Virus record (IMG/VR): IMGVR_UViG_3300042483_000529
Location: 1-64,000 of that record
Direction: 5' to 3' (one strand)
Origin: a virus
DNA length: 64,000 nt
Within the stretch, counting starts at the first letter, position 1; the number at the start of each line of letters is the position of its first letter. Positions 11,274 through 24,925 of this stretch are shown piece after piece. A program made the position numbers and the translations under genes. The notes under the pieces were generated by a model. It was given only the letters and a program-made list of their open reading frames with translations. It was not told where the DNA came from and ran no database searches.

Positions 11274-11274
11274 C

Positions 11275-11574
11275 ATGCGCTCAATAGAACTGCACCACTT
11301 TCAGACCGATAGGGACGTAGAGCTTGCTCTAACCTCTGGACTAGCACTGCCAGAACAGCTAGCCATGACGGACTGCACTGAGTGCGACGCAAGACTGTGT
11401 TACTCAGTCTCAGACTCGAACTTTGTACCATTTGTACTAGTGATTGATGAAAGCGACCAAGATTGGGTTCTATGCGAAGATTGCGCAAGCCCAATACTTA
11501 CGCTGACAGACACCTTTTTCCCCCCAGCAGTGGGTAGCCACTTTTCTGATTACGAGGATTTTGAGCCTTTTTGA
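11275..11574 (+). CDS. Zinc-binding hypothetical protein
   Basis: 99 residues from ATG 11275, chosen because the upstream in-frame ATG at 11251 lies before the -10 element. The central part has CTEC and CEDC pairs separated by about 30 residues, forming a probable zinc ribbon. The C-terminus is Phe/Asp-rich. The stop lies 2 nt before the first GTATCCACTTTT motif. Function unknown. Confidence 0.6.
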   Translation: MRSIELHHFQTDRDVELALTSGLALPEQLAMTDCTECDARLCYSVSDSNFVPFVLVIDESDQDWVLCEDCASPILTLTDTFFPPAVGSHFSDYEDFEPF

Positions 11575-11575: not shown

Positions 11576-11660
11576 GTATCCACTTTTTACGACAAGGTAG
11601 ACACGCCCTAAAAATACTCGTCAAAAGAACTTGCGAAATGTCAGTAGACCCCTGTATAGT
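11576..11660 (+). promoter_or_regulatory. GTATCC element copy 1 and promoter
   Basis: The motif GTATCCACTTTTTAC starts at 11576. The promoter -10 TATAGT is at 11655-11660, preceded by a TG, with the spacer starting ATGTCAG. Motif-to-minus-10 distance is 79 bp. This is the leftmost of 15 copies. Confidence 0.7.
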
Positions 11661-11690
11661 TGGACTTACCAATGAAAGGGGAAATACCAA

Positions 11691-12209
11691 ATGGGTATGG
11701 ATGTTTATGGCAAGAAACCAACCAACGAGGTTGGCGAGTATTTTCGCAGAAATGTTTGGGGTTGGCATCCTCTATGGGATTATGTAGAGAACAATCACCC
11801 AGAGATTGCGGAGTTAGTTGAACACGCTCACAGTAATTCTGGAGATGGCTTGGATGAGGAGAACTCAAAAAAGTTGGCACAACTTTTGATGAACGACTAC
11901 AACTCATCTAAAGTTATTGACTATGTTGATGAGCGTAATCGTCAGCTTTCAGAGCTTCCTTTTGAGGATTGTCAAATCTGTAAGGGAACAGGAATTAGAA
12001 GTGATGAACTCGGCGTTGAAAGTGGCTGGACAACTAGAGAACTAGCACCAGACATAGCAATCATTGTTGGTCGCACTCATGGTTCTTGTAATGCTTGCCA
12101 AGGAGTAGGCAAGCGAGAGAACTGGGCTACCAACTATTTCCTAGAGCCTGACGACATAAAAGAGTTTGCCGAGTTCCTTGAGAACTGCGGTGGCTTTGAG
12201 ATTTGCTAA
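11691..12209 (+). CDS. MGMD-type protein with DnaJ-like zinc motifs
   Basis: 172 residues with a GAAAGGGGAA site before ATG. The N-terminal MGMDVYG and WGWHPLWDYV resemble the protein at 10737. The C-terminal part adds two CxxCxGxG units (CQICKGTG and CNACQGVG), the pattern of DnaJ-type zinc domains that bind unfolded protein or act as adaptors. First gene behind GTATCC copy 1. Function unknown. Confidence 0.7.
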   Translation: MGMDVYGKKPTNEVGEYFRRNVWGWHPLWDYVENNHPEIAELVEHAHSNSGDGLDEENSKKLAQLLMNDYNSSKVIDYVDERNRQLSELPFEDCQICKGTGIRSDELGVESGWTTRELAPDIAIIVGRTHGSCNACQGVGKRENWATNYFLEPDDIKEFAEFLENCGGFEIC

Positions 12210-12222
12210 GGGGGTTTAGAAA

Positions 12223-12414
12223 ATGGAAAAACTTTTTTGCTTTAGTTGCGAGGACGAACTTACTGCGAAAAACACTTCGTCTTACGAGGGGTTTGACAGT
12301 TCGGGCTATCTAGTAGCTAACAGGATTGCGAAAATTGGTAAGGACATGTTTATCAAGTGTGACCCATGCTTTGATGCGGACATTGACAATTACCTAGACA
12401 ATCTCCAAAGCTAA
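12223..12414 (+). CDS. Small zinc-finger protein
   Basis: 63 residues with CFSC near the N-terminus and CDPC about 40 residues later. It is 13 nt downstream of the MGMD-type gene and probably in the same transcript. It precedes a gene-free interval with folded RNA potential. Function unknown. Confidence 0.6.
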   Translation: MEKLFCFSCEDELTAKNTSSYEGFDSSGYLVANRIAKIGKDMFIKCDPCFDADIDNYLDNLQS

Positions 12415-12428
12415 GACCTAGGGAAAGA

Positions 12429-12503
12429 CCCCTGCCTAGCAGGTTCAACGCCCGAAGCAACCTGAGCCAAGTTGTAAAACTGGCTCACTAAATCTTTCAG
12501 GGG
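12429..12503 (+). ncRNA. Three-way-junction-like RNA structure
   Basis: CCCCTG (12429-12434) pairs with CAGGGG (12498-12503) as an outer stem. Inside are a hairpin CAGGTT/AACCTG (12440-12445 with 12459-12464) and a longer hairpin GAGCCA-GTT/AAC-TGGCTC (12464-12486). An alternative outer pairing GAAAG/CTTTC (12423-12427 with 12494-12498) competes. No T-run follows. It replaces the simple terminator found at other cassette ends. The gap 12415-12634 has no gene. Confidence 0.5.
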
Positions 12504-12506
12504 CGT

Positions 12507-12586
12507 GTATCCACTTTTTACCTGGGACCCCCCGAAAAAACTTTTTACGAAATAAGTTTGACAAAAGATGAAAAGTATGGTTTACT
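12507..12586 (+). promoter_or_regulatory. GTATCC element copy 2 and promoter
   Basis: The motif with TAC ending starts at 12507. The promoter is TTGACA (12558-12563), 17-nt spacer, TTTACT (12581-12586). Motif-to-minus-10 distance is 74 bp. Confidence 0.7.
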
Positions 12587-12634
12587 TCTTACATGGCAAA
12601 AAGCCATAGACACAACAAGGAAAGGGGGAAGTCA

Positions 12635-13240
12635 ATGACTTCCACAGCTACACCAAAGATTGTAGGCAAGGCACTCTACCTAGAGCTAATTGCCGACAAC
12701 ACCATAGACGCAGACAAGCTAAGAAAAGTCTTGGGTTGGCAACACGCAGGCACAAGACAGATAATTATTTTCCCAGAGTATCAAGACGATACAGGGAAAG
12801 TTTGGGGTTCAGTAGTTATGAATCGCATTATCTCTAGTCACTCACCTAGAAGCCAATGGGACATTACTTTTATTGACAGGTATAGACCAAACATAGGTGC
12901 GTTGAGGGTGGACGACAGTTATCACAACTACCCAGAATACGAGCGTCCAGTTTGGGACACACTAACAAATAAAGAGAAGTTTGATTCTCACAAGTTGGCG
13001 TTGGATTCAACCTTGAGAAAAATTATTTTGTCAAGTGATTCCGAAATAGATTCAACTGGCAATAGAAAATTGACAGCCCTACAAGCCTTGAGGGTTAGAG
13101 ATAACAAGCCAATCGCAGTAGAGATTACTGACGAGGACATGGTTGAACTTCACATGAAGTCAAAAACTCCACAGGCAGTAATTCGCAGAATCAACAAGGT
13201 TCGTGAATCCATTTCTAGTTTCCCAGCGAAACTCGCATAA
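12635..13240 (+). CDS. Hypothetical protein
   Basis: 201 residues from ATG 12635, chosen because GGAAAGGGGGAAG lies just upstream; an in-frame ATG at 12593 is 6 nt past the -10 box and could give a leaderless longer form. The protein is mixed alpha/beta with a W/Y-rich middle (PRSQWDITFIDRYRPNIG) and a helical C-terminus. It precedes the MoxR and VWA genes and may belong to that system. No family recognised. Confidence 0.6.
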   Translation: MTSTATPKIVGKALYLELIADNTIDADKLRKVLGWQHAGTRQIIIFPEYQDDTGKVWGSVVMNRIISSHSPRSQWDITFIDRYRPNIGALRVDDSYHNYPEYERPVWDTLTNKEKFDSHKLALDSTLRKIILSSDSEIDSTGNRKLTALQALRVRDNKPIAVEITDEDMVELHMKSKTPQAVIRRINKVRESISSFPAKLA

Positions 13241-13282
13241 CCTAAAAATAGATACAGACACAACAAAGAAAGGGCGGAAGCC

Positions 13283-14344
13283 ATGTATCAACAAAAAGTA
13301 ATAGCAGAACACACAGCACCAGACCTAGCAGGAATCAACTATGACCAACTGTTAGAACAACTTGTCGGGGCAGTAAGGGGTTCAAGTTTCGGAGTGACAA
13401 CTTCAATTCTTGACGAACACCTAACACCAGCAGGTAGAGCAACACTACGCACTAAAGGTAAAGCAGGTTCAACACTTTCAACTCCAGCTAAACTAGATGA
13501 AGCAGAGCCAGCGAAGCTAGAGGAAGTTATGGAATCAGTTGCGAACTTAGAGGGAGAGGAATCTTACTCACGACCTAATGGCGACCTTTACTATGGTCGC
13601 AAGTGGGGCGACAATGTAGATGTTGAAGTTCTACGCAAAGCCAGAGAAGCAGGACAGTATGTAATGCTCTATGGAGTTCCTGGAACTGGAAAGACAGCGT
13701 GCGTTGAAGCTGCTTTTCCAGATGAACTTTACACAGTTCTTGGTTCTGGCGACACCGAAGTTTCTGACTTGGTAGGTGGCTATGTCCAAACTCCAAGTGG
13801 CGGTTTTGAGTGGGTGGACGGAAGTTTAGTAAAAGCAGCTTCCGAGGGTAAAGTTCTACTGATTGACGAAATTGGTTTGATTGACCCGAAAGTTCTTTCG
13901 GTTGTCTATGGACTAATGGACGGCAGAAAAGAAATTACAATCACACAGAATCCAGAGCGAGGCACAGTAAAAGCTAAGGAAGGATTTTTTGTAGTTTCGG
14001 CAACTAACCCTAATGTCGCAGGAGTTCGTTTGTCAGAGGCACTTCTATCTCGTTTCGCTATTCAGGTTGAAATGACTACTGATTGGAACTTGGCTAGGAA
14101 ACTTGGAGTTCCGCAGAGTGCGGTTGTTGCTTCACAGAATCTAGCAAAGAAACTAGAAAATGGTGAAACTTCTTGGTCGCCACAAATGCGAGAGTTGCTT
14201 GCGTTCCGTGACTTGTCCAAAATGTTTGGAACAAAGTGGGCAGTCCAAAACTTGCTTGCTTCCGCACCAGAGATTGACAGACCAATCGCTAGTGATGTAT
14301 TCACCAGAGTATTCGGAGAGGCAATCCTGCCAGCAAAGATTTAG
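13283..14344 (+). CDS. MoxR/CbbQ-like AAA+ ATPase
   Basis: 353 residues. A Walker A GVPGTGKT at 131-138, Walker B VLLIDE at 191-196, sensor-1-like SATNPN at 239-244 and an arginine in SEALLSRF (R257) make an AAA+ module. The layout fits the MoxR/CbbQ/CobS branch, whose members act with VWA-domain partners to remodel or insert metal into proteins. The next gene encodes a VWA protein, which matches. The N-terminal 110 residues are Ala/Glu-rich and may bind the partner. The ribosome binding site is AAAGGGCGGAAG. Confidence 0.88.
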   Translation: MYQQKVIAEHTAPDLAGINYDQLLEQLVGAVRGSSFGVTTSILDEHLTPAGRATLRTKGKAGSTLSTPAKLDEAEPAKLEEVMESVANLEGEESYSRPNGDLYYGRKWGDNVDVEVLRKAREAGQYVMLYGVPGTGKTACVEAAFPDELYTVLGSGDTEVSDLVGGYVQTPSGGFEWVDGSLVKAASEGKVLLIDEIGLIDPKVLSVVYGLMDGRKEITITQNPERGTVKAKEGFFVVSATNPNVAGVRLSEALLSRFAIQVEMTTDWNLARKLGVPQSAVVASQNLAKKLENGETSWSPQMRELLAFRDLSKMFGTKWAVQNLLASAPEIDRPIASDVFTRVFGEAILPAKI

Positions 14345-14367
14345 TGAGTGGGTTGTGTCCTCACTAA
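14341..14367 (+). terminator. Hairpin over the AAA+ stop codon
   Basis: TTAGTGAG (14341-14348) pairs perfectly with CTCACTAA (14360-14367). The stem includes the stop codon. No immediate T-run, so it may attenuate or protect the message rather than fully terminate. Confidence 0.45.
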
Positions 14368-14372
14368 AGGGT

Positions 14373-14418
14373 GGGGAAACGCAAGGTTTTTTCTTGTTTG
14401 ATTTGACTTGCGTTTCTC
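14373..14418. repeat. Inverted repeat overlapping the VWA promoter
   Basis: GGGGAAACGCAAG (about 14373-14385) is repeated inverted as CTTGCGTTTCTCCCC (about 14407-14421), one bulged base. The loop holds TTTTTTCTTG and the right arm overlaps the -35 box of the next promoter. It could be a terminator or an operator. Confidence 0.5.
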
Positions 14419-14431
14419 CCCCAACTACTAT
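14403..14431 (+). promoter_or_regulatory. Promoter of the VWA gene, no GTATCC element
   Basis: TTGACT (14403-14408), 17-nt spacer, TACTAT (14426-14431); TACAAT at 14431 is an alternative. Unlike most cassette promoters of this region it has no GTATCCACTTTT upstream. Confidence 0.6.
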
Positions 14432-14475
14432 ACAATTTAGACATAACAAAAAAACGCCAAATGAAAGGGAAGCAA

Positions 14476-16329: not shown

Positions 16330-16418
16330 ACCTAAACGGAGTGCTTGCCCAGCGGTTGAGCGAAAGTCAGGACTTCCCCCCTTTGACCTGATAATAGTTC
16401 CCAACGGACAAGACACTA

Positions 16419-16465
16419 GAAACCCCTATCAAGTGCTTCCCCCAAGTCTTGGTAGGGGTTTCGCC
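16419..16465 (+). terminator. Rho-independent terminator
   Basis: GAAACCCCTA-CAAG (16419-16433) pairs with CTTG-TAGGGGTTTC (16448-16462), one mismatch, then CCTTTCTC. It ends the VWA transcript. The rest of the gene-free interval 16330-16685 holds GTATCC copy 3. Confidence 0.8.
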
Positions 16466-16564
16466 TTTCTCGGTTTGACGGACGAGATTGGGTGGAATCT
16501 GAATCCCTGGCACAGACTTTTTACGAAAGATGAAAAGTCACCAGCAGAAAAAGCTGACGAAGGC

Positions 16565-16635
16565 GTATCCACTTTTTATCTGGCTAAAAACTTTTTTGAC
16601 AAAACACTTGCTTTTTCTGTAAACCCTGTTAGGAT
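16565..16635 (+). promoter_or_regulatory. GTATCC element copy 3 and promoter
   Basis: The motif with TAT ending starts at 16565. Best promoter: TTGCTT (16608-16613), 16-nt spacer, TAGGAT (16630-16635), distance 65 bp. TTGACA at 16596 with TAAACC is an alternative, at about 55 bp. Confidence 0.6.
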
Positions 16636-16685
16636 TGGAACTATCCAATCGGAACGAAACAGAAGTAGTTCCAGAGGGGGGATTT

Positions 16686-17036
16686 ATGGCTAAGGTCATT
16701 TCCCGAACAGCCCCAGAGGTTGCGAAAGCAACTCCAAAGGTTGTCAAAGTTTCACGAAAAGTCGTGGAACTAATCAGCGAACTTTCCGAAGTTCGTGCTA
16801 CATACAACTCGGCGAAAGCCAGAGTTGAGGAACTTCGTGACGAAGTTCTTTCCCAAGTTGGGCGTTCCAATTTGACCCTTGTCCACAACAGCATTGAGGT
16901 CGCTCGTATCGTTGAGAGTTCTCCTGTGCGTGTAGATGAGGAGTTCTTGAAAGAGAACTATCCAGAGGCTTACCAAGCTTCTCTAAGGGCAAAGCCCCAA
17001 CACACGATTCGCTCTGTCACACGCAAAGCGAACTAA
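16686..17036 (+). CDS. Coiled-coil protein, paralogue of the 24432 gene
   Basis: 116 residues from ATG 16686 behind AGAGGGGGG; a frame open further upstream starts before the promoter -10. Layout: basic N-terminus, coiled coil at about 25-60 (ISELSEVRATYNSAKARVEE), then LTLVHNSIEVARI and VDEEFLKENYPEAYQA. The same order with similar residues is found in the protein at 24432. Function unknown. Confidence 0.7.
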   Translation: MAKVISRTAPEVAKATPKVVKVSRKVVELISELSEVRATYNSAKARVEELRDEVLSQVGRSNLTLVHNSIEVARIVESSPVRVDEEFLKENYPEAYQASLRAKPQHTIRSVTRKAN

Positions 17037-17046
17037 AGAACTGGGC

Positions 17047-17080
17047 GGGCAGGGCGAAAGCCCTGTCCCCCATTTCATTT
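17047..17080 (+). terminator. Rho-independent terminator
   Basis: GGGCAGGGC (17047-17055), GAAA tetraloop, GCCCTG-CCC (17060-17069, one bulge), followed by ATTTCATTTTTTATTT. Confidence 0.8.
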
Positions 17081-17098
17081 TTTATTTGACCTGACAAT

Positions 17099-17169
17099 GT
17101 ATCCACTTTTTACCAAAGGAAATGGACACGGAAAAAAGATACCGAAAATGTCAGGGACTATGCTAAGAT
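17099..17169 (+). promoter_or_regulatory. GTATCC element copy 4 and promoter
   Basis: The motif with TAC ending starts at 17099. The -10 is TGC-TAAGAT (17164-17169); the -35 region is weak, with AATGTCAGG at the spacer start. Distance 65 bp. Confidence 0.7.
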
Positions 17170-17198
17170 TGGAACTACCACAAAGAAAGGGGAACACC

Positions 17199-17549
17199 AT
17201 GAGAGGCGAGCCATTAGAGCTTGACGAAGTTGCTGGATTATCTCTAACAGTATTGGGCGTGCTTGTTGAGGCATACATCAAAGAGGGATACAGCGACCCG
17301 ACAATGTATAGAGCAATACGGGCTTCAACCGAACTGGCTAAAAACTTCAAGGCACGGCTAGAACTAGACGGACGGGACACGGACGGCGTGGACGACTTGA
17401 TTACTAACCTAGAGCTAACGGCTATGGAATCTGGCGAGGTAGTAAACCGAATCATAGAGCAGAACGGCTGGCAAGAAACGGCTGGCGAGTGGAGTAGCCC
17501 TGCTAGTATGACTTGTGATAACGACTGCGAACATGACGGCAAGGAGTAG
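17199..17549 (+). CDS. Hypothetical helical protein
   Basis: 116 residues from ATG 17199, chosen because AAAGAAAGGGGAAC is immediately upstream while the longer frame starts in the GTATCC motif itself. Predicted all-helical with an acidic, Cys-containing C-terminus. It overlaps no promoter and is followed 7 nt later by the ClgR-like regulator. Function unknown. Confidence 0.6.
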   Translation: MRGEPLELDEVAGLSLTVLGVLVEAYIKEGYSDPTMYRAIRASTELAKNFKARLELDGRDTDGVDDLITNLELTAMESGEVVNRIIEQNGWQETAGEWSSPASMTCDNDCEHDGKE

Positions 17550-17556
17550 GGACGGC

Positions 17557-17856
17557 ATGGACTTTCAGACTGCGTTCGGCGAGGTTGTGCGTGAGCAACG
17601 GCGTGCTAATGAGATTACAATGCGAAGCGTGACGGATAGGGGACACCTAGCGTTGGGATACCTGTCCGAAGTGGAACGGGGACACAAAATGCCCTCTAGC
17701 CTAATAATTGCGTCCATAGCAGACGGACTGGGTATAGACGCAAGCGAGCTGATTATTCAGACGGGTATGCGTATGTCCAATGTTCCTGAAAGCCCTGAAA
17801 GCCTGTTCAAGCTAAGGGACAGAGATTGGGCTAATCAGTATTCAGATTTGAGATAG
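17557..17856 (+). CDS. ClgR-like XRE-family transcriptional regulator
   Basis: 99 residues from ATG 17557, with AAGGAG 10 nt upstream. Residues about 8-65 form an XRE helix-turn-helix. The central LALGYLSEVERGHKMPSSLII closely matches the signature of actinobacterial ClgR-type regulators, which control clp protease and stress genes. The C-terminus (SPESLFKLRDRDWANQYSDLR) is its own. Located mid-way through the GTATCC array, it is a candidate binder of that motif, but this is inference. Confidence 0.78.
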   Translation: MDFQTAFGEVVREQRRANEITMRSVTDRGHLALGYLSEVERGHKMPSSLIIASIADGLGIDASELIIQTGMRMSNVPESPESLFKLRDRDWANQYSDLR

Positions 17857-17862
17857 AGAAAG

Positions 17863-17893
17863 CCCCCCTGACAAAAGTTAGGGGGATTTTTTC
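17863..17893 (+). terminator. Rho-independent terminator
   Basis: CCCCCCTGAC-AAAA-GTTAGGGGG (17863-17885) followed by ATTTTTTCTT. Confidence 0.85.
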
Positions 17894-17905
17894 TTGGCTG
17901 GTAGT

Positions 17906-17964
17906 GTATCCACTTTTTGCTGAACATTTTTTGTTTGGTTTTTGTCGGGGGTAGGGTATAGGAT
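17906..17964 (+). promoter_or_regulatory. GTATCC element copy 5 and promoter
   Basis: The motif with TGC ending starts at 17906. The -10 is TAGGAT (17959-17964), 17-nt spacer beginning TTGTCGG, weak -35 TGGTTT. Distance 53 bp. TATAGG at 17957 is an alternative. Confidence 0.6.
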
Positions 17965-18003
17965 TTGATTGTTATAAAAACTCCAACAGGAAAGTAGGGG
18001 AAA

Positions 18004-18240
18004 TTGAGTTATTATCCAGAGGGTTCTATGGCTGGTTCTGGCATAGATTCCGTAGAAGTTCCGTATGACGAGTTTGTCTGCGAAGCTGACGATTGTGGCA
18101 AGGTGAACGAAGCTAGTGAAGCTATGACAGACGACTATGGCAATTACGAAGTTGAGTGCCAGTTCTGCGGTAGCTTTTACTTTAGAAGTTCTATTGCCGA
18201 GGACAAGGCAGATTGGGCAGCGAATAATTATGATTACTAA
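18004..18240 (+). CDS. Small zinc-ribbon protein (TTG start)
   Basis: 78 residues beginning at TTG 18004 behind AGGGGAAA. It contains C-x5-C (CEADDC) and CQFC, a plausible zinc ribbon, with an acidic Tyr-rich tail. The next gene starts 11 nt before its stop. Function unknown. Confidence 0.6.
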   Translation: MSYYPEGSMAGSGIDSVEVPYDEFVCEADDCGKVNEASEAMTDDYGNYEVECQFCGSFYFRSSIAEDKADWAANNYDY

Positions 18241-18397
18241 TCCAAAACAGGGGACACCAATAAAAAACAGCAAGGGCGAATTACGATACGAATACACTTG
18301 CCCGAAGTGTTTTGACGAATACAGGGTGGACGAAAAGACACACGCTTGGATTCAGACCTTAGACAGACTGCCTAAGTGTTCGCCTTGCTACTTGTAG
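18230..18397 (+). CDS. Small zinc-ribbon protein
   Basis: 55 residues starting at ATG 18230 inside the end of the preceding gene. CPKC and CSPC pairs about 28 residues apart form a second zinc ribbon in tandem with the first. The two products may act together. Function unknown. Confidence 0.55.
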   Translation: MITNPKQGTPIKNSKGELRYEYTCPKCFDEYRVDEKTHAWIQTLDRLPKCSPCYL

Positions 18398-18408
18398 CCT
18401 AAAAAGTT

Positions 18409-18456
18409 TCCCCCGAATAATCAGGAACAGCGATTCCGATTCGGGGGATTTTTTTA
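18409..18456 (+). terminator. Rho-independent terminator
   Basis: TCCCCCGAAT (18409-18418) pairs perfectly with ATTCGGGGGA (18439-18448), followed by TTTTTTTA. Confidence 0.88.
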
Positions 18457-18468
18457 TGCCGTCAATGT

Positions 18469-18538
18469 GTATCCACTTTTGCTGCGGCAGGGTAAAACTT
18501 TTTATGTGCGGTGAAAAGTCGTAGGTAGGTGATAGTAT
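18469..18538 (+). promoter_or_regulatory. GTATCC element copy 6 (one T shorter) and promoter
   Basis: GTATCCACTTTTGC starts at 18469; it is the only copy lacking the fifth T. The probable -10 is TAGTAT (18533-18538), distance 64 bp, with no clear -35. Confidence 0.55.
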
Positions 18539-18580
18539 TCAAGTATCAAGCAACACTAACCACGAACAAAGGGGAACAAG

Positions 18581-18892
18581 TTGAAAAGATTGCCTAACTA
18601 CAAGATTGGCGCGGAGATTAGTGCGCTAAACACTTTCACGAACTACAATGGCACAATTAGCGCCGTTCGGGACGAGAATAATTACAGGATTACACACTGG
18701 AACACTGTAATTCTTGATTACAACACTGACACCAACGAGATTATTTCGCTACAAGATAGCTACATTAGCCAGACAACCAGCGCGCTAGTTGGGCGAATCT
18801 TGAGGGCGTTGCCATACGCTTCGGTTGAAAGATACTTGGGCTACATGACGCCGTCAAAAGATAAGCGCCGTTTGGTCGGTATGCTTCGATAA
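18581..18892 (+). CDS. Hypothetical protein (TTG start)
   Basis: 103 residues from TTG 18581 behind AAAGGGGAAC. A probable small beta-rich N-terminal half (TFTNYNGTISAVRDENNYRI) is followed by a helix and basic C-terminus. It is the only gene of its cassette. Function unknown. Confidence 0.6.
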   Translation: MKRLPNYKIGAEISALNTFTNYNGTISAVRDENNYRITHWNTVILDYNTDTNEIISLQDSYISQTTSALVGRILRALPYASVERYLGYMTPSKDKRRLVGMLR

Positions 18893-18907
18893 AAAGCCAA
18901 AAAGTTA

Positions 18908-18935
18908 GCCCCGCTTCGGCGGGGTTTTCTTTTTC
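18908..18935 (+). terminator. Rho-independent terminator
   Basis: GCCCCGC-TTCG-GCGGGG (18908-18924) followed by TTTTCTTTTTCC. The UUCG tetraloop makes it very stable. Confidence 0.9.
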
Positions 18936-18962
18936 CGTGAAAAGTTGCGCCGGTCGCGGCGT

Positions 18963-19011
18963 GTATCCACTTTTTGATGAAAGCTTTTTGCGGATCCTTG
19001 ATCTGTATAAT
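18963..19011 (+). promoter_or_regulatory. GTATCC element copy 7 and promoter
   Basis: The motif with TGA ending starts at 18963. TG-TATAAT (19006-19011) is a perfect extended -10. Distance 43 bp, the shortest of the set. The only two GATC sites in the 8.03-25.5 kb tract lie in this promoter (about 18993 and 18999). Confidence 0.75.
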
Positions 19012-19033
19012 TGTTGATGAAGGGGGAACACCA

Positions 19034-19348
19034 TTGAATAATTTCTCAGAGCGAATCATTGCCAATACCGAAGATGGACGCCGTGAAGTGCGCGTCCTGC
19101 GTCTTGCGGTAAGTCTTGGCGACGACTTGGCATACATTGATTGGGAGCCAAGCGGGGAGCTTTACTTTATCAAAGTCCCCGTCGAGTATCGCCGTCAAGG
19201 AATCGCTACAAAGCTATGGCAGGACGCTCAGGAACACGCGAGAAGCTTGAACTTGCCCGCGCTAACCCATAGCGAATACAGAACTGACGCGGGCGATTCT
19301 TGGGCTAAGTCCCTAGGCGAAAAACTTCCACCAAGAATCCGCGCTTAG
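19034..19348 (+). CDS. GNAT-family N-acetyltransferase (TTG start)
   Basis: 104 residues from TTG 19034 behind GAAGGGGGAAC; the longer frame starts before the -10 box. Residues about 40-65 (LYFIKVPVEYRRQGIATKLW) carry the acetyl-CoA pyrophosphate motif R-R-Q-G-I-A and the preceding beta strand. The domain is short, so it is a minimal or divergent GNAT. Acceptor unknown. It is interesting beside a phage HDAC-fold gene. Confidence 0.72.
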   Translation: MNNFSERIIANTEDGRREVRVLRLAVSLGDDLAYIDWEPSGELYFIKVPVEYRRQGIATKLWQDAQEHARSLNLPALTHSEYRTDAGDSWAKSLGEKLPPRIRA

Positions 19349-19364
19349 TTTTTTGTAGCCAGGT

Positions 19365-19435
19365 GTATCCACTTTTTGACGAGGCGACACGCTTGCTTGC
19401 GGGTTCTTGCTTTTGTCGGTGGGTTGGGGTAAAGT
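19365..19435 (+). promoter_or_regulatory. GTATCC element copy 8 and promoter
   Basis: The motif with TGA ending starts at 19365. TTGCTT, 17-nt spacer beginning TTGTCGG, TAAAGT (19430-19435). Distance 65 bp. No hairpin terminator is seen between the GNAT gene and this element. Confidence 0.7.
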
Positions 19436-19467
19436 CAAACTAACCAAGCAAGAGGGAAGGAAACAAA

Positions 19468-19683
19468 ATGATTGGTAGAAACAAAGATGCGGAAACAGCT
19501 TTTGATATGGCAATGAAGTTGCTGAACAACCCAAGTGAGGAAGTTCAACAGCAAGTCTGGGACAAGTGCCACGCTGACGAAGTAATCCAAAGGTCGGTAA
19601 GGCTTTACCTTTACAGCGAGCCAAGCTACACACCAAAGGCTCTATACAACCTTCACCAAAAACTCGCCGAGTTGGTGTCCTAA
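19468..19683 (+). CDS. Small helical hypothetical protein
   Basis: 71 residues, helical, with AAGAGGGAAGGAA before ATG. It overlaps the following start by 1 nt (TAATG). First of four packed genes ending at 20343. No motif recognised. Confidence 0.6.
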   Translation: MIGRNKDAETAFDMAMKLLNNPSEEVQQQVWDKCHADEVIQRSVRLYLYSEPSYTPKALYNLHQKLAELVS

Positions 19684-19832
19684 TGGTTGTTCGCCCGCTG
19701 GAGAATACAGTTTGCTATCAATGCCCTAAGAAGATTATGGCAATGGTTGGTGCGGTTCACCCGCTATGCGTTGAGTGTCAAGAAAGTTTTGACGATTGGT
19801 TTGAACACGAGCTAGGAGTTTTCAATGGCTAA
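19683..19832 (+). CDS. Mini zinc-ribbon protein
   Basis: 49 residues with CYQC and CVEC pairs about 17 residues apart, a minimal zinc ribbon. Starts on the upstream stop (TAATG) and overlaps the next gene by 8 nt. Function unknown. Confidence 0.6.
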   Translation: MVVRPLENTVCYQCPKKIMAMVGAVHPLCVECQESFDDWFEHELGVFNG

Positions 19833-20028
19833 GCAAGTTTATTTTGTTGTTGCGGTGGACTTAGATGAGTGCGTGCCGTTTATAGATGATGACACCTTTA
19901 CAGCAAGGTTCAGTTCGGCAGAGCAAGTTTGGGACACCGAACTACAAGAGTGGCAAGAAGACCCTGACCAAGAGTTTTACGATAAAGCGTTGAAGATTTT
20001 GAACACCATACCTTTAGCGAAAGACTAG
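19825..20028 (+). CDS. Small acidic hypothetical protein
   Basis: 67 residues: a hydrophobic beta strand (VYFVVAVDLDECV) then an acidic Trp-containing middle and a helix. GAG-rich upstream sequence can serve as a ribosome binding site. It overlaps the preceding gene. Function unknown. Confidence 0.55.
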   Translation: MAKQVYFVVAVDLDECVPFIDDDTFTARFSSAEQVWDTELQEWQEDPDQEFYDKALKILNTIPLAKD

Positions 20029-20031
20029 TCA

Positions 20032-20343
20032 ATGAAACACAAAAAGAGTAAAGTTCAAGGCAAGTCTAGGCACGCCGAGTATCTTCGCCGAGTAGATAAC
20101 GCCGATAGAGTTGCGGTAATGCTAAGGGGCATAACTTTATTTTGCGCTTTTATTTTTGTAATGAGGATAGTCGCTGGCGTTGATTCAGTTTCAGAATACC
20201 TAATCCTTTATGCGGTTGTGTTTGTGGGCGGGGTTAGTGCTTCGCTTGCCGAATACTTTTTGTTTAGGGCTTACCAAAGTCGCTACTCAAAAAGTCGCCG
20301 ACAAAGTTTTTGGGATTTGTTCAACACCGAACTTTCCAAATAA
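20032..20343 (+). CDS. Two-span membrane protein
   Basis: 103 residues: basic N-terminus (about 30 residues, many Lys/Arg), hydrophobic spans at about 31-50 and 57-80, basic C-terminus. Both termini would be cytoplasmic. Last gene of the 19468 cassette, followed by a terminator. Possible roles include superinfection exclusion or membrane remodelling, but nothing specific shows this. Confidence 0.6.
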   Translation: MKHKKSKVQGKSRHAEYLRRVDNADRVAVMLRGITLFCAFIFVMRIVAGVDSVSEYLILYAVVFVGGVSASLAEYFLFRAYQSRYSKSRRQSFWDLFNTELSK

Positions 20344-20348
20344 AACTT

Positions 20349-20383
20349 CCCGCTAGGACTTCCCCCCTAGCGGGATTTTCTCT
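20349..20383 (+). terminator. Rho-independent terminator
   Basis: CCCGCTAG (20349-20356) pairs perfectly with CTAGCGGG (20367-20374), then ATTTTCTCTTT. Confidence 0.85.
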
Positions 20384-20393
20384 TTCCAGCTGC

Positions 20394-20453
20394 GTATCCA
20401 CTTTTTGATAGAGATTTTTTTGTGTGCGTTTTGTCGGTGGACTATGCTATGGT
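20394..20453 (+). promoter_or_regulatory. GTATCC element copy 9 and promoter
   Basis: The motif with TGA ending starts at 20394. TGCGTT, 17-nt spacer beginning TTGTCGG and ending TGC, TATGGT (20448-20453). Distance 54 bp. Confidence 0.7.
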
Positions 20454-20481
20454 TGAAGTATCCAAACAAAGGGGAAGTAAA

Positions 20482-20673
20482 TTGAAGACAGATTCAAGAA
20501 TAGCAATAGTTTCAGAGCTACCAAACTGCGACTTCTGCGGTGAACACGCTCGCTATGACGGAGCAACCAAACTTGGACCTTGGGCTTTTATGTGCCAGAA
20601 GGACTGGGTATCTCACGGAGTAGGGCTTGGGCTTGGCAAAGGTCAAGTTCTAATGAAGGAAGGAACTAAGTAA
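20482..20673 (+). CDS. Small zinc-binding protein (TTG start)
   Basis: 63 residues from TTG 20482 behind AAAGGGGAAG; the longer frame begins before the -10. It has CDFC near residue 16, a WAFMCQKD turn and a Gly-rich tail (HGVGLGLGKGQVL). This is a pattern I recall from small phage zinc-ribbon proteins of unknown role. It is followed directly by the next gene. Confidence 0.65.
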   Translation: MKTDSRIAIVSELPNCDFCGEHARYDGATKLGPWAFMCQKDWVSHGVGLGLGKGQVLMKEGTK

Positions 20674-20874
20674 ATGGCGACAACAGTTGGAGAGCTGATT
20701 GAACAGCTAAAGACGCTGGACCCCGACACAACAGTTGTGTTTCAGTATTTGACACACGAACACACCGACTTTTCAATTGACGATTTTGAGTCAAAAGCCG
20801 AGGCACTTGACTACACCAACTTCGCTGATGAAATGTCTATCACGATGAACGAGTGGCTCGCCGAAATGGAGTAG
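20674..20874 (+). CDS. Small acidic hypothetical protein
   Basis: 66 residues starting right after the previous stop (TAAATG). The N-terminus TVGELIEQLKTLDPDTTVVF is a helix-strand motif common in small phage proteins; the rest is acidic and helical. Second gene of its cassette. Function unknown. Confidence 0.65.
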   Translation: MATTVGELIEQLKTLDPDTTVVFQYLTHEHTDFSIDDFESKAEALDYTNFADEMSITMNEWLAEME

Positions 20875-20893
20875 CCACGCGACACCAAAGATT

Positions 20894-20925
20894 CCCCCGC
20901 GACCCCCGCGGGGGTTTTCTTTTTT
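20894..20925 (+). terminator. Rho-independent terminator
   Basis: CCCCCGC (20894-20900) pairs with GCGGGGG (20908-20914), followed by TTTTCTTTTTT. Confidence 0.88.
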
Positions 20926-20943
20926 GCCGGAAGGTAGCCAGGT

Positions 20944-21017
20944 GTATCCACTTTTTGATTCGGCTGCCGAAAGGGTTTTGTAAAAGTATTTGCTTTTTTC
21001 TTTTTGTGTAGTAAGAT
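20944..21017 (+). promoter_or_regulatory. GTATCC element copy 10 and promoter
   Basis: The motif with TGA ending starts at 20944. TTGCTT (20989-20994), 17-nt spacer, TAAGAT (21012-21017). Distance 68 bp, outside the main spacing classes. Confidence 0.68.
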
Positions 21018-21045
21018 GAAACTCTAACGAAAGGGAGGTTCCTAA

Positions 21046-21438
21046 ATGGGAGCAAGAACAACTTGGAAAATAAAGACTAATGATTCGGGAGCTATTACTT
21101 GGCTTTACAGTCATTGGGGAGGCGACAGTAAGTTTGACACCACTAAAGAGGCGTTGGACTTGGCTATGCCTCGCTGGGAGGATAGGACTTATGGAGCTAG
21201 GATTTTTATCAGTAGCGTAATTGGTAATTCTTGGAGTTCACAGACAGGGTTTGGAATTACTTCAACCCTTGACACAGATTCCAACCCGTTTGAGGAAAGC
21301 TACACGCCTTACACAATTGACTTTGTGCGGAAAGTAGTGATTCTTGAAGGTGTTCTCGGAGAGGACTGGGAGTTAGGCTTTGACGAGTTCACTAGACTAA
21401 ACAGCGAAGCCGACTTGCTACTTCAAGGGACAAGGTAA
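21046..21438 (+). CDS. Conserved phage hypothetical protein
   Basis: 130 residues with AAAGGGAGG before ATG. The segment ITWLYSHWGGDSKFDTTKEALDLAMPRWEDRTY and a following ARIFIS strand make a pattern I recall from phage proteins of unknown function. Mixed alpha/beta, no catalytic signature. First gene of a two-gene cassette. Confidence 0.68.
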   Translation: MGARTTWKIKTNDSGAITWLYSHWGGDSKFDTTKEALDLAMPRWEDRTYGARIFISSVIGNSWSSQTGFGITSTLDTDSNPFEESYTPYTIDFVRKVVILEGVLGEDWELGFDEFTRLNSEADLLLQGTR

Positions 21439-21720
21439 ATGGGAAACTTACAAGCTCAAGAAATTGCGAGCAACACCGAAATTACACTTGAACAGCAACT
21501 AACTTGGCACTTACAAGGTAATCACTATCCACCGATTCCAGTTAGTATGGTTCAGCCTTGTGTTGAAGCAATTCAGGCTTATTGGGAAGATGAGCTAGAC
21601 ACGGAGATTCAGTTGCCCGAAGGTGTTTTGTATCGGGGGAAGGAAACAGCCCCCGCTAGAGAAATAATCATCAATCATCACTTAGACGCTTGGTGTCAAG
21701 ATGACGAAGATGAGTTTTAG
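21439..21720 (+). CDS. Hypothetical protein
   Basis: 93 residues starting directly after the upstream stop (TAAATG). Mostly helical, ending in an acidic WCQDDEDEF tail. No family recognised. A terminator follows. Confidence 0.62.
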   Translation: MGNLQAQEIASNTEITLEQQLTWHLQGNHYPPIPVSMVQPCVEAIQAYWEDELDTEIQLPEGVLYRGKETAPAREIIINHHLDAWCQDDEDEF

Positions 21721-21747
21721 GATTAGCCCCAACTAACCCCCCAAATG

Positions 21748-21790
21748 CGGGCAATAGAGAGATTCCCCCTTTCTATTGCCCGTTTTCTTT
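21748..21790 (+). terminator. Rho-independent terminator
   Basis: CGGGCAATAGA pairs with TCTATTGCCCG (21748-21758 with 21772-21782), followed by TTTTCTTT. Confidence 0.87.
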
Positions 21791-21803
21791 GCGTGCCGGT
21801 AAG

Positions 21804-21874
21804 GTATCCACTTTTTACTGGGCTTGATTTTCTTTTTATGAAATACTTGTTTTTCTTTGTTAGTGTGTTATTGT
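21804..21874 (+). promoter_or_regulatory. GTATCC element copy 11 and promoter
   Basis: The motif with TAC ending starts at 21804. TTGTTT (21847-21852), 16-nt spacer, TATTGT (21869-21874). Distance 65 bp. Confidence 0.65.
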
Positions 21875-21923
21875 TTATCTGTTGGGAAGTTCCCGACAAG
21901 AAACAAGAAAGTTGGGCAGAGAA

Positions 21924-22151
21924 GTGAAGTTTGTAATTAGGAGAGCAGTCTTAGGGTTGGTGGCTTTGCCAGTAATCGCTGGGACTTATGTTTTTATGTT
22001 TGTATTGCTAGGTTCGCTAAACAATACTTTATGGGGACTAACCCTAGATGAAGTTTGGAATAACGGACTTTTGATTGGTTCGGTTAGTGCGGTTGCTTTC
22101 GCTTTCGCAACTCAGATTGACAAGCTAATTGCTAGATTGGTTGGTGAATAA
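21924..22151 (+). CDS. Two-span membrane protein (GTG start)
   Basis: 75 residues from GTG 21924; a TTG at 21882 is an alternative. Two hydrophobic spans at about 8-30 and 47-62 with a short connecting loop (LNNTLWGLTLDEVWNNG). The stop overlaps the next start (TAATG). Function unknown. Confidence 0.55.
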   Translation: MKFVIRRAVLGLVALPVIAGTYVFMFVLLGSLNNTLWGLTLDEVWNNGLLIGSVSAVAFAFATQIDKLIARLVGE

Positions 22152-22285
22152 TGACTATCATTGTAATCAACCTAGACGGCTCAAGAACGCCTTACGGCTA
22201 TTCGGCTCACTCATCAGACATCACCGATTACTATGACCGCCTAGTTGCGGAAAATAGAATCACCGCCTATGAGGTGATTTCCTAA
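22151..22285 (+). CDS. Tiny hypothetical protein
   Basis: 44 residues between two TAATG-type junctions, so it is held in an unbroken coupled string. Beta strand (TIIVINL) then polar helix and strand. No motif recognised. Confidence 0.5.
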   Translation: MTIIVINLDGSRTPYGYSAHSSDITDYYDRLVAENRITAYEVIS

Positions 22286-22431
22286 TGGGAGATTTTATTC
22301 TATTAGCGTTTGCTATCGGACTTATCTTTGGTGGCTTTACTCTTATGTTTTACAGTTTACTAACTGTAAAAAGAGATAACTACCGACCGAAGCATACACG
22401 CTCAACATACCTGCCCAACAGGAAAAGATAG
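22285..22431 (+). CDS. Single-span membrane protein
   Basis: 48 residues: hydrophobic span at about 3-27, then a strongly basic tail (KRDNYRPKHTRSTYLPNRKR). Start overlaps the previous stop. Last gene of the cassette, ahead of a terminator. Function unknown. Confidence 0.55.
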   Translation: MGDFILLAFAIGLIFGGFTLMFYSLLTVKRDNYRPKHTRSTYLPNRKR

Positions 22432-22451
22432 TTCCCCCAACTATCGGAAAG

Positions 22452-22484
22452 CCCTCGCCTTTGTGCGGGGGTTTTCTTTTTTCT
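22452..22484 (+). terminator. Rho-independent terminator
   Basis: CCCTCGC (22452-22458) pairs with GCGGGGG (22465-22471, one G-U), then TTTTCTTTTTTC. Confidence 0.8.
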
Positions 22485-22508
22485 GTTTTTTTTTTCTGAC
22501 GAGAGCTG

Positions 22509-22569
22509 GTATCCACTTTTTGATGGAAGTTTTTTCGGCTTCCGTTTTGTCGGGCATTTATGCTAGTGT
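22509..22569 (+). promoter_or_regulatory. GTATCC element copy 12 and promoter
   Basis: The motif with TGA ending starts at 22509. TCCGTT, 17-nt spacer beginning TTGTCGG and ending TGC, TAGTGT (22564-22569). Distance 55 bp. Confidence 0.68.
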
Positions 22570-22597
22570 TAGAGCTACCAATTAGAAAGGTTATCAA

Positions 22598-22765
22598 ATG
22601 GGAAAGTTAGTTGCAGAGCTAGGAACAAAAAAAGTCTTATCTCTAGTTGAAGGCGAAACAACAGTTTCGGCTTACTTACTCACGGAGAGTGAAGAGTTTC
22701 TTGCTGTCCTAAAGAGTGCCGACAGTCTAGAGCAGGTTCTAGATTGGGTAGAAGAAAACTACTAG
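22598..22765 (+). CDS. Small hypothetical protein
   Basis: 55 residues, alpha/beta, acidic (pattern SAYLLTESEEFLAVLKSADS, then a Trp helix). ATTAGAAAGG upstream is a weak ribosome binding site. Followed 11 nt later by a larger gene. Function unknown. Confidence 0.55.
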   Translation: MGKLVAELGTKKVLSLVEGETTVSAYLLTESEEFLAVLKSADSLEQVLDWVEENY

Positions 22766-22776
22766 GAAGGTAGAAA

Positions 22777-23127
22777 ATGAAATTAGCTCTAAAGATAACG
22801 CCAGATGGCGTAGCAACTGAAATTGACATAGCCACGGACGAATTGAAGAAACTACAAGACGCGGTTGATGGTCTAATTCAACCCGTTGATTTTGAGTTCG
22901 GCTCTAGGTATTTGACAATGTGGGTGAATGAAGAAGGACTACTTAGAAACGATTTGGAAATGAATCCTGTCGCCTTTCTGTTTTACTCTTCACCGATAAT
23001 GGGAAACATTATCATAACTGGCGCGCCAGATGAAGATGGCGAAACAACAAGCCTAGACAGCGCGACAGAGTTAGATGTTCTAAAAAGGATTTGTGAAAAG
23101 TTCCTAAGTTCTGTTGAACAAGTCTAA
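22777..23127 (+). CDS. Hypothetical protein
   Basis: 116 residues with GGAAGG before ATG. N-terminal alpha/beta part (KLALKITPDGVATEIDI, then a helix KKLQDAVDGLI), central strands and an acidic C-terminal helix. Resembles small phage proteins of unknown function; no motif seen. A terminator follows. Confidence 0.62.
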   Translation: MKLALKITPDGVATEIDIATDELKKLQDAVDGLIQPVDFEFGSRYLTMWVNEEGLLRNDLEMNPVAFLFYSSPIMGNIIITGAPDEDGETTSLDSATELDVLKRICEKFLSSVEQV

Positions 23128-23144
23128 ATAAAAAACTAAAGCAA

Positions 23145-23174
23145 CCCCGCCTTTGCGCGGGGTTTCTTTTTATC
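23145..23174 (+). terminator. Rho-independent terminator
   Basis: CCCCGC (23145-23150) pairs with GCGGGG (23157-23162), followed by TTTCTTTTTAT. Confidence 0.85.
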
Positions 23175-23200
23175 TTCCGTAAAAAGTCTGCCGTCAACTG

Positions 23201-23262
23201 GTATCCACTTTTTGATGCCTCTCTTAGTTGCGGTTGCTTTTTTCTTGCGTTTGTGTTATCTT
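23201..23262 (+). promoter_or_regulatory. GTATCC element copy 13 and promoter
   Basis: The motif with TGA ending starts at 23201. TTGCTT (23234-23239), 17-nt spacer, TATCTT (23257-23262). Distance 56 bp. Drives the subtilisin-like gene. Confidence 0.7.
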
Positions 23263-23299
23263 GATTTGGCTTATAGCAACACTTAGTAGAAAGAGAAAA

Positions 23300-24238
23300 A
23301 TGAAAAGACAAATTAGTATCGCGCTCGCGGTGGCATTGCTTGCCGTTGGGACTACCCCCGCTAGCGCTGGAGTTCAAGGTGAAGTTAGTTCTTGGGGTCT
23401 AGATAGAGTAGACCAAACAGCGGGAACAGCAACACTAGATAGAAGCTACAAATACCCCGACAGCGCTGGCGCTGGAGTTCGCGTGTATGTTTTAGACACG
23501 GGAGTTCTTGGAACGCTACCTGGTTTCGGCGGGAGAGTTCTTACAGGGTTTGACACTCTCGCGGGACTTAGAACGCCACATCAGGCTAATCTTGACTGTA
23601 ATGGTCATGGAACAGCCGTAGCTGGAATCATTGCTAGCGCGACTTATGGAGTAGCTAAGAGCGCAACCATTGTGCCAGTTCGCGTTGCGGACTGTAAAGG
23701 TGGAATAGTTCCTGCCAACATTGTCAAGGGAATTGACTGGATAATCAAGAATCACCCGCGCGGTACCCCTGCCGTTGTGAATCTAAGTATCGCGGTTGGT
23801 AAGACTAAGTTGGTTGATGACGCGATTACAAAACTCTACGGGATTGGTATAGTTTCAGTAGTTTCCGCTGGTAATCAAAACATAGACGCTTGTCGTCTAA
23901 GCCCCGCGGGAGCAACATACGCCCTTACCGTTGGGTCTATAAACATGAACGACCAAAGAACAAATACTTCTAACTTTGGCGAGTGTGTTTCTATGTACGC
24001 CCCTGGTGGTTTGATTACTACCGAGGGAACAAATGGTTTGCCCTCAACAAGAAGCGGAACATCTTTTTCCGCGCCTCATGTTGCTGGAGCAATAGCCTTG
24101 TATCTTTCAAGCAACCCTAAGGCAGACGCCCCCGCGACTGTTTGGGAGATTACAAGAAATGGTTTGAGTGGAGCTGTTGCTGACGCTAAGAGCGTTAGAG
24201 GCAATGTTCTACTCAACACCGCCTTTCTAAACAAGTAA
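23300..24238 (+). CDS. Secreted subtilisin-like serine protease (S8)
   Basis: 312 residues from ATG 23300 behind AGAAAGAG. Residues 1-23 are a signal peptide (MKRQ, hydrophobic core, ASA cleavage site). The catalytic triad is intact: Asp66 in VLDTG, His103 in NGHGTAVAG, Ser255 in SGTSFSAPH, with oxyanion Asn192 in SAGN. The mature start (SSWGLDRVDQ) follows almost directly, so the usual I9 propeptide appears absent. Subtilases of the proteinase K branch degrade extracellular protein; export from a phage-infected cell is unusual. It is alone in its GTATCC cassette. Confidence 0.92.
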   Translation: MKRQISIALAVALLAVGTTPASAGVQGEVSSWGLDRVDQTAGTATLDRSYKYPDSAGAGVRVYVLDTGVLGTLPGFGGRVLTGFDTLAGLRTPHQANLDCNGHGTAVAGIIASATYGVAKSATIVPVRVADCKGGIVPANIVKGIDWIIKNHPRGTPAVVNLSIAVGKTKLVDDAITKLYGIGIVSVVSAGNQNIDACRLSPAGATYALTVGSINMNDQRTNTSNFGECVSMYAPGGLITTEGTNGLPSTRSGTSFSAPHVAGAIALYLSSNPKADAPATVWEITRNGLSGAVADAKSVRGNVLLNTAFLNK

Positions 24239-24251
24239 GCAATAAGCAAAG

Positions 24252-24284
24252 ACCCCCTGCCGTAATTGGCGGGGGGTTTTTTGC
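24252..24284 (+). terminator. Rho-independent terminator
   Basis: ACCCCCTGCC (24252-24261) pairs with GGCGGGGGGT (24268-24277), followed by TTTTTGC. Confidence 0.88.
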
Positions 24285-24297
24285 TAGCTGAAGGCGT

Positions 24298-24368
24298 GTA
24301 TCCACTTTTTGACCTGTTGAAAAAACTTTTGCGGAATTGCTTGTTTTATCGGATTAGTATGCTATGAT
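24298..24368 (+). promoter_or_regulatory. GTATCC element copy 14 and promoter
   Basis: The motif with TGA ending starts at 24298. The spacer begins TTATCGG and ends TGC; -10 TATGAT is at 24363-24368. Distance 65 bp. A small hairpin ATCATC-AAAA-GATGAT (24375-24390) lies just after the start site. Confidence 0.68.
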
Positions 24369-24431
24369 GATTACATCATCAAAAGATGATAATCCAAGCA
24401 ACAAAAGCAACACCTAACAAAGGGGAATAAG

Positions 24432-24773
24432 TTGACAACATCAACAACAACCGCAACAACAACCGCAACCAAGGCAACAAAAGTTGTTCTAGGACAAGTT
24501 CGGGAATTGACTGAGGTTAGGGCAGAAATTGCCAGACTGGAAAAACTAAAGTTGGCTCTCACCGCTGAAATTGAAAAGGCTTTTGAGGTTGACAAAGAAG
24601 CAAAGACCTCACGCTTTTCAACCCTTACTCACAATGCCATAGAGTTCGCAAGAATTGACTGGAGAAGCCGTAAGGGTATTGACTCAGAGAAGTTAGCCCT
24701 AGAGTTTCCTGAAGCGTTTGAGGCTTGCCAGAAGCCAACTGTTTACTCAGTAATAGTTTCCTTGTTCAAGTAA
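24432..24773 (+). CDS. Coiled-coil protein, paralogue of the 16686 gene (TTG start)
   Basis: 113 residues from TTG 24432 behind AAAGGGGAAT. Thr-rich N-terminus, coiled coil (LTEVRAEIARLEKLKLALTA), then FSTLTHNAIEFARID, and DSEKLALEFPEAFEACQ. The same modules in the same order occur in the protein at 16686. Function unknown; the repeated retention of two copies suggests a dose- or target-specific role. Confidence 0.7.
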   Translation: MTTSTTTATTTATKATKVVLGQVRELTEVRAEIARLEKLKLALTAEIEKAFEVDKEAKTSRFSTLTHNAIEFARIDWRSRKGIDSEKLALEFPEAFEACQKPTVYSVIVSLFK

Positions 24774-24784
24774 AAGGGAGAGAG

Positions 24785-24818
24785 AAGCCCCCGCCGAAAG
24801 GTTGGGGGCTTTTCTTTT
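24785..24818 (+). terminator. Rho-independent terminator
   Basis: AAGCCCCCGCC-GAAA-GGTTGGGGGCTT (24785-24811) followed by TTCTTTTGCC. Confidence 0.88.
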
Positions 24819-24848
24819 GCCAAAAAGTTTTACGGCGACTCGCGGGCT

Positions 24849-24925
24849 GTATCCACTTTTTGATTAGTCTTCCAGGTGTATCACGGGCTTAGGCTTTTTG
24901 TCTGTGGCAAATAGTATGCTAATGA
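24849..24925 (+). promoter_or_regulatory. GTATCC element copy 15 and promoter
   Basis: The motif with TGA ending starts at 24849, with a partial GTGTATCAC copy about 28 bp on. TTGTCT, 16-nt spacer ending TGC, TAATGA (24920-24925). Distance 71 bp. Rightmost copy. Confidence 0.6.

Follow-up and report, generated by a model that had tools for sequence, protein, structure and literature searches.

The stretch analysed here, referred to as the window, comprises 64,000 nucleotides (nt) of viral DNA (positions 1 to 64,000 of IMG/VR record IMGVR_UViG_3300042483_000529) and contains, between 11.5 and 24.9 kb, a chain of small gene cassettes headed by a short repeated site. The 12-nt core of this site, GTATCCACTTTT, is present in 15 exact copies, all on the + strand and at the starts given in a preliminary description of the window, which had also correctly reported that eight copies continue with TGA and four with TAC. 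A pattern search on both strands of the whole record (66,414 bases) returned 15 forward and no reverse copies, and the reversed control pattern was not found; the short site is asymmetric, as had been described, and oriented with transcription in 15 of 15 cases. When up to two mismatches were allowed, the window yielded 25 matches versus 6.0 +/- 2.4 in 100 shuffles, none of which reached 25. The head of the window's site version is GTATCCAC. A one-mismatch copy that was absent from the preliminary list heads the following overview of the sites and of the promoter blocks predicted behind them:

11534-11545, + strand: degenerate copy GTAGCCACTTTT with one mismatch, inside the 3' end of the open reading frame (ORF) 11251-11574
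11576-11587, + strand: site copy 1, predicted promoter block from +55 (11631), upstream terminator weak
12507-12518, + strand: site copy 2, predicted promoter block from +50 (TTGACA-17-TTTACT)
16565-16576, + strand: site copy 3, predicted promoter block from +41
17099-17110, + strand: site copy 4, predicted promoter block from +41; its cassette includes a ClgR-like gene
17906-17917, + strand: site copy 5, predicted promoter block from +29
18469-18480, + strand: site copy 6, predicted promoter block from +40; the sole copy with four T instead of five
18963-18974, + strand: site copy 7, with TGTATAAT as -10 and a weak block from +22 that is under the score cut
19365-19376, + strand: site copy 8, predicted promoter block from +41
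20394-20405, + strand: site copy 9, predicted promoter block from +30 (TATGCT near -10)
20944-20955, + strand: site copy 10, predicted promoter block from +44
21804-21815, + strand: site copy 11, predicted promoter block from +33
22509-22520, + strand: site copy 12, predicted promoter block from +31
23201-23212, + strand: site copy 13, predicted promoter block from +32; a subtilase cassette follows
24298-24309, + strand: site copy 14, predicted promoter block from +41
24849-24860, + strand: site copy 15, predicted promoter block from +42

Most copies were said to lie behind a terminator and ahead of a promoter, and this holds: by a simple rule a terminator ends 18-36 nt ahead of 10 of the 15 (the one at 11576 being weak), and a sigma70-like promoter block above the genome-wide 99.5% cut is predicted behind all copies except that at 18963, by a matrix whose training set included these 15 sites among others. 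A start codon with a Shine-Dalgarno-like stretch is found downstream of 14 copies. The placement of the sites between genes was judged from ORF lists and start sites, not from a gene caller. The array begins just ahead of a CobS/CobT-like AAA and VWA gene pair (labels taken from the annotation of relatives), and the terminase comes after its end. A sister record, G191 (128,478 bases; G and L numbers are our own handles), matches positions 22369-66414 in the window's numbering at 99.995% and positions 1-3876 at 99.974%. It contains just four copies, those of the shared part of the array, and no one-mismatch copy, so that exact copies are confined to 11.5-24.9 kb in the 66.4 kb record and its 128 kb sister, in agreement with what had been noted before. 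Overlap of the two assemblies would give a joined map of about 147 kb, with all exact sites in one array of 13.3 kb. In a viral contig collection the 15-mer GTATCCACTTTTTGA was found in 75 stretches, and only two contigs, both of them versions of this phage, contained at least three copies.

Relatives were gathered from IMG/VR through the AAA protein (69 viral loci) and through the ClgR-like protein of the array (57 loci, the contigs partly overlapping). Among them are arrays of the same build with other site versions, namely GTATTTATTTTTT, GTATTCATTTTTT, TAGTTATTTTTT and TTTTTCATTTTTT; as found across many of the relatives' arrays the versions read GTATTTATTTTTT, (G/C)TATTCATTTTTT, TAGTTATTTTTTCTG and TTTTTCATTTTTTCC. 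The resident version was counted as a 12-mer chosen as the invariant stretch, variable neighbours (e.g. the first base in some records) being left outside the count. On the forward strand of 15 arrays it occurs in 274 exact and two one-mismatch copies, in addition to which there are two stray copies of another version: each phage employs essentially one site version. Next to the 274 forward copies there are nine reverse copies in the 15 records (9 of 283), and no good promoter was found behind these. A single inverted copy lies some 450-700 nt behind the last forward copy in G003 (72565), G004 (19116), G009 (31634) and G036 (22221; joined coordinates), and G009 has a head-to-head site pair at the array start as well. 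No such inverted copy was seen behind the array in the window.

Many other relatives lack a site of this kind. For the close relatives G007, G008 and G029 a k-mer search gave no clear replacement motif, and in L015, L016 and L071, also close and without the site, GATC-containing stretches were observed by eye between terminator and promoter, with no clear repeat found. The distant relatives L018 and L019 carry TTGACAAATGT in 10 and 9 copies, eight of which in each locus are extended to the nearly inverted repeat TTGACAAATGTCA; this repeat resembles an operator over the -35 hexamer, in place of an upstream site. A promoter-like core is repeated in L023, L027-L029 and L048-L050 (CCTGATATAAT), and a core similar to TTCTAAAGATGTTATAAT in L118 (DSL-LC01).

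The sites are in helical phase with the predicted promoters. Scoring promoters by hand against a generic consensus gave no information, and a first run of a Gibbs sampler returned ribosome sites, not promoters. A Gibbs sampler blind to spacing identified a sigma70-like block (TTG, 17 bp, TANNNT) behind the sites of nine records, at distances that cluster around 33, 43, 53 and 64 bp with a period of 10.5 bp. For 148 sites in these nine records, 145 of them above the score cut, R(10.5) was 0.59, a value that none of 5000 jittered sets reached. Held-out phages (115 sites in eight loci, of which 82 were without look-alikes and 77 of those above the cut) likewise gave R = 0.59, with 0 of 5000, whereas the control distances from site to start codon and from the upstream T-run (terminator) to the promoter gave R = 0.14 (n = 142) and R = 0.24 (n = 130), respectively. 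With a matrix-free rule, TTGNNN-N17-TANNNT, which has exactly one match at 108 of 242 sites, R was 0.54 (again 0 of 5000). The sites off the main peak (87 of 221) are jointly in its phase, with a mean cosine of 0.55 and a V-test p of 2.5e-13 if independence is assumed, and the pattern is therefore not merely one preferred spacing. If transcription is assumed to begin 12 nt beyond the first base of the -10 element, the spacing peaks would put the site centres near -63, -73, -83 and -94 of these predicted promoters. A second conserved element, approximately ATGTCRGNGG, was observed directly after the -35 hexamer, in the spacer between the two promoter elements of many cassettes (at 11638-11647, for example).

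The phasing bears on several explanations of the repeat. If the sites were promoters in their own right, used by an RNA polymerase specific to the phage, with the downstream sigma70-like promoters acting at another time, the phasing would be left unexplained. Uniform, one-way, gene-heading sites do resemble T7-type promoters, but a T7 RNA polymerase query gave no phmmer hits in 2019 ORFs of 17 records and tblastn matches only at E >= 1.6, and we regard this explanation as very unlikely. A search with PF00940 was negative in 12 of 12 records; its control was also silent, so this result proves little. Hardly any credence is given to the idea that the sites are stoperator-like elongation road-blocks of an immunity repressor. 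This analogy, drawn in the preliminary description, is invited by the short asymmetric sites and their orientation tied to transcription, but it fails on distribution, the exact copies all falling within 13.3 kb of the roughly 147 kb map, and it does not explain the phasing of sites that lie upstream of promoters and mostly behind terminators.

An intrinsic UP-like element would need no phage protein at all, the T-tract and its flanks being read by the C-terminal domain of the alpha subunit of host RNA polymerase. The stretch TTTTT is common to all five versions (copy 18469 excepted), and GTATTTATTTTTT fits the distal-subsite consensus of the E. coli UP element; by eye it is the only version to fit this A/T-only consensus, the CCAC, TTCA and TAGT versions failing to do so. 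The A/T preference of alpha is degenerate, and both the C- or G-containing heads (CCAC, TAGT) and the near-absolute uniformity within a phage exceed it. Displaced alpha sites can still be functional at whole turns (PMC4390567). On balance a purely intrinsic element seems improbable to us.

The preliminary description had also suggested a recombination seam; at such a seam, cassettes would be acquired and exchanged. In favour of this, the cassettes are bounded by the repeat and cassette content differs among the phages. For 17 records, BLAST with single linkage was used to group the genes that come first after each site, which resulted in 34 orthologous cassette groups spanning at least two phages; in the window, 11 of the 14 cassettes with a called first gene have orthologous partners. 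In 30 of the 34 groups at least two site versions are present, matching the resident phage. The site version thus tracks the phage and not the cassette, and does not travel unchanged. The occurrence of the same gene behind different versions argues against a seam that is inherited with the cassette, and for a reader that acts in trans. Phasing to a promoter would not be expected of a seam either, and we consider the proposal scarcely tenable.

The reader is likely to be encoded by the phage. A related array, with an AAA protein that is 77% identical, belongs to a contig that was assigned by binning to the genome of an uncultured Aquiluna, a putative host linked to the phage by binning alone. 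In this metagenome-assembled genome (1.3 Mb) the site version of that array is restricted to the phage contig, where it has 10 copies, and GTATCCACTTTTTGA was found in 0 of 150 genomes of that likely host family. The confinement to the phage contig together with the absence from the 150 genomes speaks for a phage-encoded reader. We consider it probable, though with room for doubt, that the repeat is bound by a sequence-specific transcription activator of the class I type which the phage itself encodes. A single phage reader would bind upstream of each promoter and activate 10-36 small cassettes jointly; in a cassette newly acquired by a phage, selection would remake the site to the resident version.

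The preliminary description had allowed for an activator or a repressor. The activator is favoured by the orientation, placement and phasing of the sites, by their phage-specific versions and by the result for the host family, and the repressor is retained as an unlikely, lesser rival. A phage repressor or silencer bound ahead of every promoter, on the helix face that RNA polymerase also occupies, might keep the cassettes off until needed. Phasing indicates contact or a common face but does not tell activation from repression, and asymmetric, transcription-oriented sites are read by the repressors of Cluster A phages (PMC9283540). Lysogeny is conceivable in this group: the site-less relative DSL-LC01 is called lysogenic in the paper describing it (PMC10611076), and 5 of 14 site-bearing records, including G191, carry a serine recombinase (PF00239) in open frames 232-267 amino acids long. 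Against a repressor, the sites are located some 60-95 nt upstream of the estimated start, off the core promoter. A tyrosine integrase (PF00589) was found in 0 of 14 records, mostly fragments, and its control gave hits in all 14 genomes scanned. Nine of the 14 records, the long G006 and G035 among them, lack PF00239, and hence the arrays do not depend on the serine recombinase. The size of that protein, found at G191:C1:21136-21576 and in the four other records, would fit a resolvase or an invertase better than an integrase of the large type.

Several observations weigh against an activator of the class I type. A tolerance of mismatches close to zero, as seen here, is unusual in activator sites of the ordinary kind. 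The phase varies slightly among the phages (9.7 to 2.0 of 10.5), and the core promoters are not clearly weaker than those of site-less relatives (mean best match 7.35 vs 7.32 of 12); matches of at least 10 of 12 were found in 8% with sites vs 16% in the relatives without. Changes in spacing between orthologous cassettes favour whole turns weakly, with a mean cosine of 0.17 over 247 non-independent pairs with a change of at least 4; 123 of these 247 changes are within 9-12 or 19-23. The promoters themselves are predictions, and the class I positions depend on the assumed start. Finally, no protein family cleanly tracks the site version in the 17 records: the top partial correlations between family similarity and site similarity, 0.53 and 0.43, belong to families that were seen in 8 and 9 of the 17 records, respectively, and are not known as DNA-binding.

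Three proteins of the window with a helix-turn-helix (HTH) or an HTH-like stretch were considered as the reader:

17560-17853, + strand: ClgR-like HTH protein of the XRE family (NF041677, 59.7 bits, cut-off 170)
28838-29428, + strand: protein with two predicted HTH stretches, the first sigma70 region-4-like
5348-5599, + strand: small MerR/excisionase-like HTH protein

The ClgR-like protein was judged unlikely. All 25 site-bearing loci have it, but so do 52 of the 102 others (among which it is over-represented, since this protein was used to fetch them), and its recognition helix is unrelated to the site version, resembling that of site-less loci and of the high-GC (guanine-cytosine) locus L191. 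ClgR is an actinobacterial regulator; the phage copy is found in many related phages, with a recognition helix that is the same as in the L191 protein. The two-HTH protein is 70-85% identical in the site-less G007 and G029 and had no PDB match at E <= 0.001, and the excisionase-like protein was not found in G004 and G005. A small Zn-ribbon protein (18004-18237), whose family is represented in 21 of the 25 loci with the site and in 12 of the remaining 102, was rejected since it is strongly acidic (in G003, for example, the family member has 3 K+R vs 20 D+E). The protein at 12635-13237 folded well (pLDDT, the predicted local distance difference test, 85.4) and gave no PDB match at E <= 0.001 either. 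Models for sigma70 region 2 and for Cas12f/TnpB-like proteins each gave no hit in any of 13 records, and their controls were detected in 10 and in 6, respectively, of 14 genomes; WhiB is present in 8 of the 13 records.

A candidate lead was identified outside the window, a protein of 93 amino acids that is HTH-like by eye (L300:15573-15851 of G191). It is encoded in 6 of 6 site-bearing records of at least 96 kb and in none of the shorter site-bearing fragments examined. Nothing better than E 0.045 was found for it in the whole of DSL-LC01 and no match at E <= 0.01 among 50,697 phage records; PHROGs gave only a weak unknown family, and Pfam nothing for the first 70 residues. It remains a lead because the site-less close relatives are fragments.

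A further possibility, which we rate as doubtful, is that the versions constitute an address code, in which each lineage would own a movable group of as many as 36 cassettes through one near-invariant tag and an activator dedicated to reading it. Foreign cassettes would be silent until their tag is rewritten, so that reader and tags would change together and an expression barrier would exist between related phages. Such a code may be likened to immunity specificity, but for activation. If the activator reading is true, dozens of small genes of unknown role in these freshwater actinobacterial phages make up a single regulon controlled by one switch, and their timing and function could be tested together. 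The hundreds of sites, in five versions and at orthologous promoters, would represent a natural experiment on the joint change of a regulator and all of its sites, and would also bear on the spacings to which class I activation is held in bacteria other than proteobacteria.

Other features of the window include a protein with a histone-deacetylase domain at 2176-3129 (PF00850, 174.5 bits), a subtilase at 23300-24238 (PF00082) with a signal peptide by eye and a cassette of its own, and a 2OG-Fe(II) oxygenase-like protein at 1219-1818 (PF13640). The BLAST group of the latter holds 19 ORFs of seven site-bearing records, which shows it to be multi-copy. Between 25412 and 26155 some 740 nt lack a good ORF; the right part of this region shares a block around CAAAAGCAGTAGACGCTAAGGTACTAATTCTTCCGTTACGGACACCCCC with G003 near 73.1 kb, and no Rfam match was obtained for it at the gathering score. 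Rfam gave five matches at E <= 1 for 9000-30000 of the window, none at the gathering score, and 17000-24900 had no DNA-level match among the phage records of an annotated collection. The main text of the paper on DSL-LC01, the nearest named relative, contains neither 'promoter' nor 'repeat' (PMC10611076). In the literature searched, which covered few subscription journals, no report of such an array was found.

Phage activators that work through the alpha subunit of RNA polymerase include Ogr of P2 and Delta of P4; these and Mor of phage Mu act at few promoters with fixed spacing, unlike the many-site array described here. Mor is a phage protein that, bound upstream, recruits host RNA polymerase (PMC4390567). 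With the operators and stoperators of Cluster A mycobacteriophages (L5, TipsytheTRex) the array shares many short asymmetric copies that are oriented with transcription. The Cluster A stoperators, however, are spread over the whole genome, differ from one another within it and are bound by an immunity repressor (PMC9283540), whereas the sites described here are clustered, uniform and phased to promoters. The start-associated sequences (SAS) and extended SAS of Cluster K phages, to which the preliminary description had likewise pointed, are also many one-way repeats ahead of non-structural genes; they typically lie 3-7 bp before start codons, the position of a ribosome site, and the extended-SAS consensus differs between phages (PMC3203893). 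This analogy fails on position, the distance from site to start codon here having a median of 112 nt and a range of 71-141 (n = 142 of 148, six sites being dropped for want of a start block far enough away).

The sites of CRP are palindromic, degenerate and chromosome-wide, whereas the phage site is asymmetric, near-invariant, packed in one array and phage-specific. What the array has in common with the class I promoters of E. coli CRP is a whole-turn spacing between site and (here predicted) promoter: CRP class I sites are placed at -61.5, 71.5, 82.5 and 92.5 according to two studies (PMC11894529, PMC5352689), and the centres estimated for the phage sites would be close to these positions.

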